Shown here: positions 26,239-27,542 of the stretch, one piece after another
How positions within the stretch are numbered: the first letter of the stretch is position 1
Layout of the letters: each line of letters starts with the position of its first letter
Assembly (NCBI GenBank): GCA_028687935.1
Contig: JAQTZE010000004.1
Coordinates: forward strand, 67,875 to 131,874
Source of the DNA: Sulfurimonas sp.
GTDB lineage: Bacteria > Campylobacterota > Campylobacteria > Campylobacterales > Sulfurimonadaceae
DNA: 64,000 bases
Direction of reading: 5' to 3'
Position numbers and translations under genes: made by a program
Notes under the pieces: generated by a model
The model's database searches: none
Seen by the model: the letters and a program-made list of their open reading frames with translations, nothing else
What the model was told of the DNA's origin: nothing

Positions 26239-27036
26239 ATGCCATACTTTAGCATAGCCGTTCTTGCGTTTGTTCTTGCGTTTTCTTTTTTAGGCTCTTT
26301 TATCTATGGGCAAAGCCCTTATCTCTTGGACTACACTTCTATTTTAGTTCCTCCATCATTCGCACATCCTCTTGGTACAGATAGACTTGGTCGTGATATT
26401 TTGGCTAGAGTTATGGAAGGCGGACAGATCTCAATGATTATCGGGGTTGGGAGTGCGTTTATCGCCTCTTTTATCGGGCTTATTCTTGGTTCTATGGCTG
26501 GGTTCTTCCGAGGTGGCGTTGACAAAGCATTTATCATAGGCGTTGATCTTTTTTTAACTTTTCCGACCTTCTTTTTGCTTTTGGCACTTGTGAGTTATGT
26601 CAATGCTTCGGCATGGGTACTCATACTTATCATCTCTATCACAGGGTGGATGACAACGGCGAGGCTTATTCGTTCTGAGAGTTTTAGTATCACTTCAAAG
26701 CCCTATATCAAAATACTCAACATAGCCAAAGTCAATAAACTCAAAATCCTACTTAAGTACTATGCGCCTATTCTTGCACCTATCTATTTTGTGAGCTTTA
26801 CTTTTGGAGTGGGTGGTGCGATATTGGCAGAATCGGGTCTTAGTTTTTTAGGTCTTGGCATTGTCGCTCCGCAAATGAGCTGGGGAACTATCCTCAGTGG
26901 TGGCAAAGATGTTGTGGAGATCGCCTGGTGGGTGAGCTTTTTTCCAGGGCTTATGATATTTTTGGTCACTTTTTCGCTGATTAATATTTCGAATTATCTG
27001 CAACAGTTGACGAATAAGAAACAGATACAAGTTTAG
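26239..27036 (+). CDS. Orphan DppC/OppC-type ABC transporter permease
   Basis: A 265-residue membrane protein with about six helices. HPLGTDRLGRDILARVMEGG is the conserved N-terminal signature of the OppC/DppC branch, and AESGLSFLGLGIVAPQMSWG is the EAA-loop motif contacting the ATPase. Such permeases import peptides or nickel with a DppB partner, two ATPases and a binding protein, none of which is nearby. It lies 8 bases after flgK, in the same orientation, so it could be transcribed with the flagellar operon. The substrate is unknown. Confidence 0.86.
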   Translation: MPYFSIAVLAFVLAFSFLGSFIYGQSPYLLDYTSILVPPSFAHPLGTDRLGRDILARVMEGGQISMIIGVGSAFIASFIGLILGSMAGFFRGGVDKAFIIGVDLFLTFPTFFLLLALVSYVNASAWVLILIISITGWMTTARLIRSESFSITSKPYIKILNIAKVNKLKILLKYYAPILAPIYFVSFTFGVGGAILAESGLSFLGLGIVAPQMSWGTILSGGKDVVEIAWWVSFFPGLMIFLVTFSLINISNYLQQLTNKKQIQV

Positions 27037-27038
27037 AG

Positions 27039-27067
27039 TGCCACACTACGCTCGTAGCTGCGTGGCA
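27039..27067. repeat. Nested palindrome after the permease gene (terminator or REP-like)
   Basis: TGCCAC (27039-27044) pairs with GTGGCA (27062-27067), and inside it CTACG (27046-27050) pairs with CGTAG (27053-27057). It lies immediately after the permease stop, in the gap before the convergent comEA. No T-run follows, so a REP-like repeat is as likely as a terminator. Confidence 0.55.
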
Positions 27068-27074
27068 ATCTCAA

Positions 27075-27102
27075 AAACGCAGTAATTATTTTACAAACGC
27101 AG
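27075..27102 (+). repeat. Two intergenic copies of the dispersed AAACGCAG word beside comEA
   Basis: AAACGCAG occurs at 27075-27082 and again at 27095-27102, a direct repeat with 20-base spacing, the second ending at the base before the comEA stop codon. They are the clearest non-coding examples of a word found about 130 times in this window (see findings). Confidence 0.8.
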
Positions 27103-27366
27103 TTATTTCTTTGCAGCTTTACACTTTCCTGCTTGAAGCTCTTTTTTGTTATTTTCTATAAACTTTGGTCCAAGACCTTTTACTTCACTCAGTGCTTCAA
27201 TGTTTTTAAAACAGTTTTCTTTTCTGTACTCTAAAACTGCATCCGCTTTTTTCTCACCTAGACCTTTAAGGGTCATAAGTTCCTCTTTTGAAGCATTGTT
27301 GATATCTACTGCTGCAAATAAAAATGTAGCACTCAAAACAGCCGTAGCCAAAACTAGTAATTTCAT
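27103..27366 (-). CDS. comEA: ComEA-like helix-hairpin-helix DNA-binding protein
   Basis: 87 residues from ATG 27366; the track's longer form adds 12 unlikely residues. It has a signal peptide (MKLLVLATAVLSATFLFA), then a double helix-hairpin-helix domain with DINNASKEELMTLKGLGEKKADAVLEYR and LSEVKGLGPKFI, the ComEA pattern. ComEA binds incoming double-stranded DNA in the periplasm during natural transformation. C-terminal Cys and Lys residues follow (AGKCKAAKK). It is monocistronic. Other competence genes are not in the window. Small periplasmic HhH proteins of other function exist, but competence is the best fit. Confidence 0.82.
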   Translation of the reverse strand: MKLLVLATAVLSATFLFAAVDINNASKEELMTLKGLGEKKADAVLEYRKENCFKNIEALSEVKGLGPKFIENNKKELQAGKCKAAKK

Positions 27367-27542
27367 GATAAACCTTTGTGTTGAATTTGCAATAGTATAC
27401 ATAAAATATTATAAATTAACAAATAAAGTTTTAATTATTAAAAGTTTTTTTTGTTCTTTTGTGTAAATAATTACAAAAAAAGAGTAGTGCGCTTTTTCGC
27501 AGTAATGAAACGCAGCTAGTATGAAGAACGAATGAATATCCC

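Follow-up and report, generated by a model that had tools for sequence, protein, structure and literature searches.

Throughout the window, by which we mean the whole 64,000-nucleotide stretch of Sulfurimonas sp. DNA analysed here, the octamer AAACGCAG recurs far more often than by chance (65 copies against 2.5 expected), and it pervades the home genome (G000, a 2.58 Mb draft of a Sulfurimonas species) with 2,331 copies against 83 for the reversed word, our control for word counts. Judging from sequence comparisons, we propose that its degenerate form, AAACGCAR, serves this Sulfurimonas lineage as an uptake sequence for DNA; we put the probability of this reading at roughly 0.6. An earlier, sequence-only reading had taken two copies of AAACGCAG at the end of comEA as strengthening an uptake hypothesis; that hypothesis gains strong support from genome- and genus-wide evidence (enrichment, absence of strand bias, conservation among carriers and dialects), to which the pair itself adds nothing. 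The discovery is the word background and not a meaningful pair at a competence gene; the two copies next to comEA are one ordinary example of that background.

Measured over the dinucleotide expectation in 381 kb of the home genome (expected counts being derived from low-order Markov models), AAACGCAG is enriched 26-fold, AAACGCAA 13-fold, AAACGCAC 4-fold and AAACGCAT 2-fold. Position 8 is degenerate in G000, while single changes at positions 1–7 bring the word near background (~0.5- to 2-fold), with A7 to G (4-fold) as the sole exception. The true motif is HAAACGCAR: outside the core we find only ‘not G’ at position -1 and a weak bias at each of the two bases that follow, and because no signature extends beyond these, a longer or mobile repeat unit is ruled out. 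The flanks are not AT-rich either (AT 0.60–0.61 against a background of 0.61). AAACGCAG is non-palindromic and occurs about once per kb, and AAACGCAR about once per 0.55–0.6 kb, so that the density of one copy per ~0.5 kb given previously fits the degenerate motif and not AAACGCAG alone. Approximately 90% of copies in G000 lie inside genes, which equals the coding fraction, and the reading frames used at these sites are mostly Asn-Ala (sense) or Ala-Phe (antisense). Two stretches are nearly free of the motif, L034:12663-19385 (6.7 kb) and L033:708-8703 (~8 kb, GC 0.30–0.31), and are candidates for recently acquired islands.

Our scan of the genus, in which the six-base core AAACGC was compared with its reversed control in 135 Sulfurimonas species-genomes, gave a bimodal ratio, with 31 carriers at 2.15–6.15, 102 genomes below 1.5, and only two in between. 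Carriers spell the last bases as AAACGCAR, AAACGCAGT, AAACGCC[AG], WAACGC[CG]A or mixtures of these, dialect calls in several MAGs being based on 25–90 kb. The home clade (G000, G020, G110, L001, L002 and G037) uses AAACGCAR, with a preference for G in G037; G075 and G073 have AAACGCAG followed by T, G061 has AAACGCC[AG], G092 and G094 have AAACGCCA together with other minor forms, G001 has [AT]AACGC[CG]A, and G049, G119, G128 and G025 carry mixtures of AAACGCAG, AAACGCG[AG] and AAACGCCA. These dialects have AAACGC in common and differ mainly at positions 7–8, which is also where G000 is most tolerant. On a tree of one gene, pta (phosphate acetyltransferase), from 31 genomes, carriers cluster (3 changes against 7.9 when shuffled, 0 of 500 shuffles being as low), and a well-supported clade of 19 consists entirely of genomes without the word. 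In an order-wide sample of 399 genomes, none of 86 other genera was enriched, one genus of the same family showing a mild twofold excess.

Several further repeats came to light in these samples. In two genomes of another family in the order, AAACGCAG is repeated in tandem with a period of 408 or 411 bases (G456:C1:291960-294415 and G461:C1:291108-294403), and these arrays are the probable reason why their counts differ between strands. The nearly closed and otherwise unenriched genome G017 has 111 forward against 30 reverse copies of AAACGCAG, probably again a repeat array. Finally, the palindrome TACATGTA is enriched in several samples of non-carrier Sulfurimonas (L037, L038, L044 and L047, from G002, G004, G011 and G015), reaching 14 copies against 0.7 in 20 kb.

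Between carriers, the word is kept two to three times as often as random 7-mers. Alignments of G000 with G110 and G020 retain 62–73% of motif 7-mers against 27–30% of all 7-mers, and those with G037 retain 43–65%, depending on direction, against 18%. By comparison, two non-carriers conserve none of 10 sites and a carrier with a different dialect conserves 1 of 24, where the background is ~10%. The encoded protein therefore does not demand these sites, and a protein-coding cause is rejected, since non-carriers with the same genes lack them. As conservation is limited to carriers, it is the word itself, rather than the protein, that is maintained, and in carriers only.

A short, strict, very frequent and non-palindromic word could also be a Chi-like signal, that is, an octamer that regulates an AddAB-type helicase-nuclease and is selected for promoting recombinational repair. 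Chi (RecBCD/AddAB) is likewise a short, enriched and non-palindromic word that varies between species, and an AddB/RecB-type PDDEXK_1 nuclease is encoded in 127 of the 135 Sulfurimonas genomes, G000 included. However, the orientation by replication strand that marks Chi is missing overall: the G-rich (leading) strand is not favoured by the word across eight carrier sets (742:698, p = 0.26), the split in G000 alone is 354:335, and only G110, with a modest bias (126:81, p = 0.002), points towards Chi. We therefore set aside an overall leading-strand (Chi or KOPS) orientation. The nuclease is moreover equally universal in carriers and non-carriers, a density of ~1–1.7 per kb is high for Chi, and the word has been lost completely from some lineages and respelled between close relatives within one genus, neither of which is typical of Chi. 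Because of the absent orientation bias and the presence of the nuclease in non-carriers, we consider a Chi-like role unlikely. Another word, CATGAGC, is ~sevenfold enriched in G110 (119 against 16; L092-L094, L139-L141) and enriched in L001, and hardly so in G000 (87 against 58); checked as a possible Chi of G110 it showed no strand bias, and it may be a putative second signal or dialect-like word.

Modification or sequence-specific repair of the HIP1 or Vsr kind, where a methyltransferase or a mismatch-repair bias would favour the exact word, seems no likelier. The even spread through coding DNA and the exactness of the copies recall HIP1 of cyanobacteria, an equally iterated and very frequent octamer, and the patchy presence among genomes would fit a mobile methyltransferase. 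HIP1 is, however, a palindrome tied to methyltransferases (PMC4390886), unlike the non-palindromic AAACGCAG. A repair bias would also hit particular mismatches, whereas nearly all alternatives at seven positions are equally without excess, and the graded dialect spellings on one core are better explained by a shift in protein recognition. A role in chromosome organisation or segregation, through a nucleoid protein or a KOPS-like motif, is very unlikely: the word is frequent on all sampled contigs, but it shows no gradient between the sampled regions and no overall orientation bias, and it is absent from three quarters of the genus, although organisational motifs are normally conserved throughout a genus.

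The pair at comEA was described accurately by the sequence-only reading. Our word search of the window places AAACGCAG at 27075–27082 and at 27095–27102, both on the forward strand with starts 20 bases apart, and the second copy adjoins the TAA stop codon of comEA at 27103–27105 on the reverse strand. The assignment of the gene (27103–27366, reverse strand) is also borne out, as the 87-residue product has a signal-like N-terminus and one HHH domain (PF12836, HHH_3, 4e-18) and scores over the cut-off of TIGR00426. Its convergent neighbour, on the forward strand at 26239–27036, encodes an ABC-transporter inner-membrane permease (PF00528), and the gap of 66 bases between the two genes holds both copies. 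An imperfect hairpin in this gap, GCCACGCAG...GTGTGGC (27040–27067), is a possible bidirectional terminator and is made without the two motif copies. A third AAACGCAG lies nearby, upstream of comEA (27508–27515, forward strand). In the two closest Sulfurimonas MAGs (L001 and L002), the inner copy persists immediately behind the comEA stop, reading TAACTGCGTTT on the comEA strand, and the outer copy is missing, so conservation, which the sequence-only reading had put forward as a check on both copies, extends to one of them.

Proximity of the pair to comEA looks coincidental, as that reading had itself allowed, because AAACGCAR sites lying 0–20 bp past a stop number 17 against 13 expected among 377 genes of G000. 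Word density and the non-conserved outer copy likewise rule out the pair as a special element. That it serves comEA as a terminator or regulatory site is hardly credible: it does lie in a short convergent gap with its inner copy kept in two close relatives, but those relatives lack the outer copy, the pair is direct and not inverted, the region folds no better than its shuffles (z = -0.73), and, across all genes, the number of sites shortly after a stop is close to expectation.

Pairs elsewhere in the genome tell a similar story in the gene-position statistics, which cover sampled contigs (370–446 kb of G000, some short contigs being read as N) with genes called by a simple home-made ORF caller. 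In 370 kb and at distances of up to 25 bp, we count 8 direct pairs of AAACGCAG against ~4 expected, 16 in any orientation against 8.3, and 36 AAACGCAR pairs in all orientations against 26; close direct pairs are thus about as common as density predicts, and there is no excess clearly beyond it. The proposed clustering of pairs near gene ends does not hold, as just five intergenic gaps over the 370 kb contain at least two copies, and the search for paired-copy enrichment at gene ends, on which the sequence-only reading had staked its proposal, was essentially negative. Across six carrier sets, convergent gaps show a mild excess of AAACGCAR (17 against ~10 expected, the comEA pair contributing two), divergent, promoter-bearing gaps a deficit (7 against ~23), and codirectional gaps the coding level with no excess. 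Nor is there the fixed spacing that had been suggested, apart from five direct pairs in G000 spaced by 21 bp, a multiple of three. Inverted pairs show no general excess, and since they are not generally enriched and the comEA region folds like its shuffles, pairs as terminators are rejected. Three perfect abutting inverted pairs, AAACGCAGCTGCGTTT, do occur in G000 (L031:8682-8697, L031:11117-11132 and C4:10781-10796 in L021) against ~0.1–0.3 expected by density.

Gene-end pairs of uptake sequences in Haemophilus are inverted and form terminators, unlike the direct pair at comEA; such inverted terminator pairs are frequent in the known uptake families and not essential to them. Within the phylum, Campylobacter discriminates self-DNA by methylation, through CtsM at RAATTY, a methylated, unenriched palindromic site, whereas the Sulfurimonas word is enriched and non-palindromic. 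Inverted terminator pairs and AT-rich flanks aside, the word matches the genomic hallmarks of the uptake sequences of Neisseria and Pasteurellaceae, dialects included. According to PMC12616744, motif-based recognition of self in uptake is confined to two families, Neisseriaceae and Pasteurellaceae. DNA uptake sequences (DUS) of Neisseriaceae occur in thousands of copies in both orientations, with dialects on a constant core, and are absent from some lineages (PMC3630211). The Sulfurimonas word resembles them in its ~1–4 thousand copies per genome in both orientations, as the most abundant repeat, in its lineage-specific dialects on a constant core and in its absence from some lineages. It differs in belonging to another phylum, in its unrelated sequence, which is not of the GCCGTCTGAA-type core, in being shorter (7–8 informative bases against 10–12) and in not being concentrated in inverted terminator pairs; the receptor in Neisseriaceae is ComP. 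The Hin and Apl types of Pasteurellaceae uptake signal sequences (USS) have subclade-specific spellings that share the constant part ANNNGCGGT (PMC1626085), and with them our word shares a core of 8–9 bp, a mostly genic location, few near-miss copies and subclade spellings. Unlike USS, it has a core other than AAGTGCGGT or ACAAGCGGT, lacks AT-rich flanking segments and a general excess of inverted pairs, and shows only a weak excess at gene ends with divergent gaps depleted.

Machinery for natural transformation is present in the home genome, which encodes ComEA (in the window), ComEC (contig C24, with two pilins at a distance of ~7 kb) and DprA (C41). It also holds a T2SS/T4P-like secretin/ATPase/pseudopilin cluster on C39, with GspC/D/E/F/G/H/I/J/K/L/M-like genes, several of these subunit labels being assigned according to position and length; more pilins lie on C32. 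ComEC is found in 78 of 79 good Sulfurimonas genomes, and because it and the AddB/RecB-type nuclease are near-universal in the genus, neither explains carriage; ComEC is accordingly rejected as a discriminator. The pilin near ComEC (G000:C24:14528-14953; L161:9528-9953) is also universal in Sulfurimonas, independently of carriage. That of G000 is 82% identical to its counterpart in G037 and 72–78% to those of non-carriers, and only 54–55% to those of G020 and G110, which share its dialect and whose pta is 88% identical to that of G000. Its divergence relative to pta suggests fast diversification or exchange, and this pilin is probably not the receptor, as its similarity does not follow dialect. 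A GspH-like pseudopilin, present in 22 of 31 carriers and 53 of 102 non-carriers, is weakly associated with carriage and was not retained as a receptor since the association is not significant (p = 0.07).

Returning to AAACGCAR as an uptake sequence, we infer biased uptake, a receptor and drive from the observations above. Counting against this reading are the modest strand bias of G110, the missing inverted terminator pairs and AT-rich flanks, and the failure of ComEC and its neighbouring pilin to follow the motif. A surface DNA-binding component of the competence machinery would prefer fragments bearing the word, and minor pilins of the type II/IV-pilus-like apparatus would be the obvious candidate class. 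Uptake and recombination would then favour DNA of the cell's own kind; alleles with the exact word would spread and be restored by repair, a process of uptake or transformation drive. The word would build up on both strands, mainly in genes, wherever the protein tolerates it, as in the Asn-Ala and Ala-Phe contexts. In lineages with a changed receptor the final bases may have changed while AAACGC stayed constant, which would have produced the dialects, and lineages that lost the preference would have lost the words. In the open-licence literature, the only library searched, we found nothing on uptake sequences in Campylobacterota or Sulfurimonas, nor data on uptake or transformation in Sulfurimonas.

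We think it probable, with slightly less assurance than for the uptake role itself, that self-specific uptake sequences arose independently a third time, in Campylobacterota, forming a family with dialects within one genus, repeated losses and a putative receptor. If this is true, the occurrence of such a family in another phylum would mean that uptake specificity evolves repeatedly. The dialects and losses of Sulfurimonas would then form a natural series within a group of closely related, free-living bacteria, useful for finding the receptor and for separating drive from selection.
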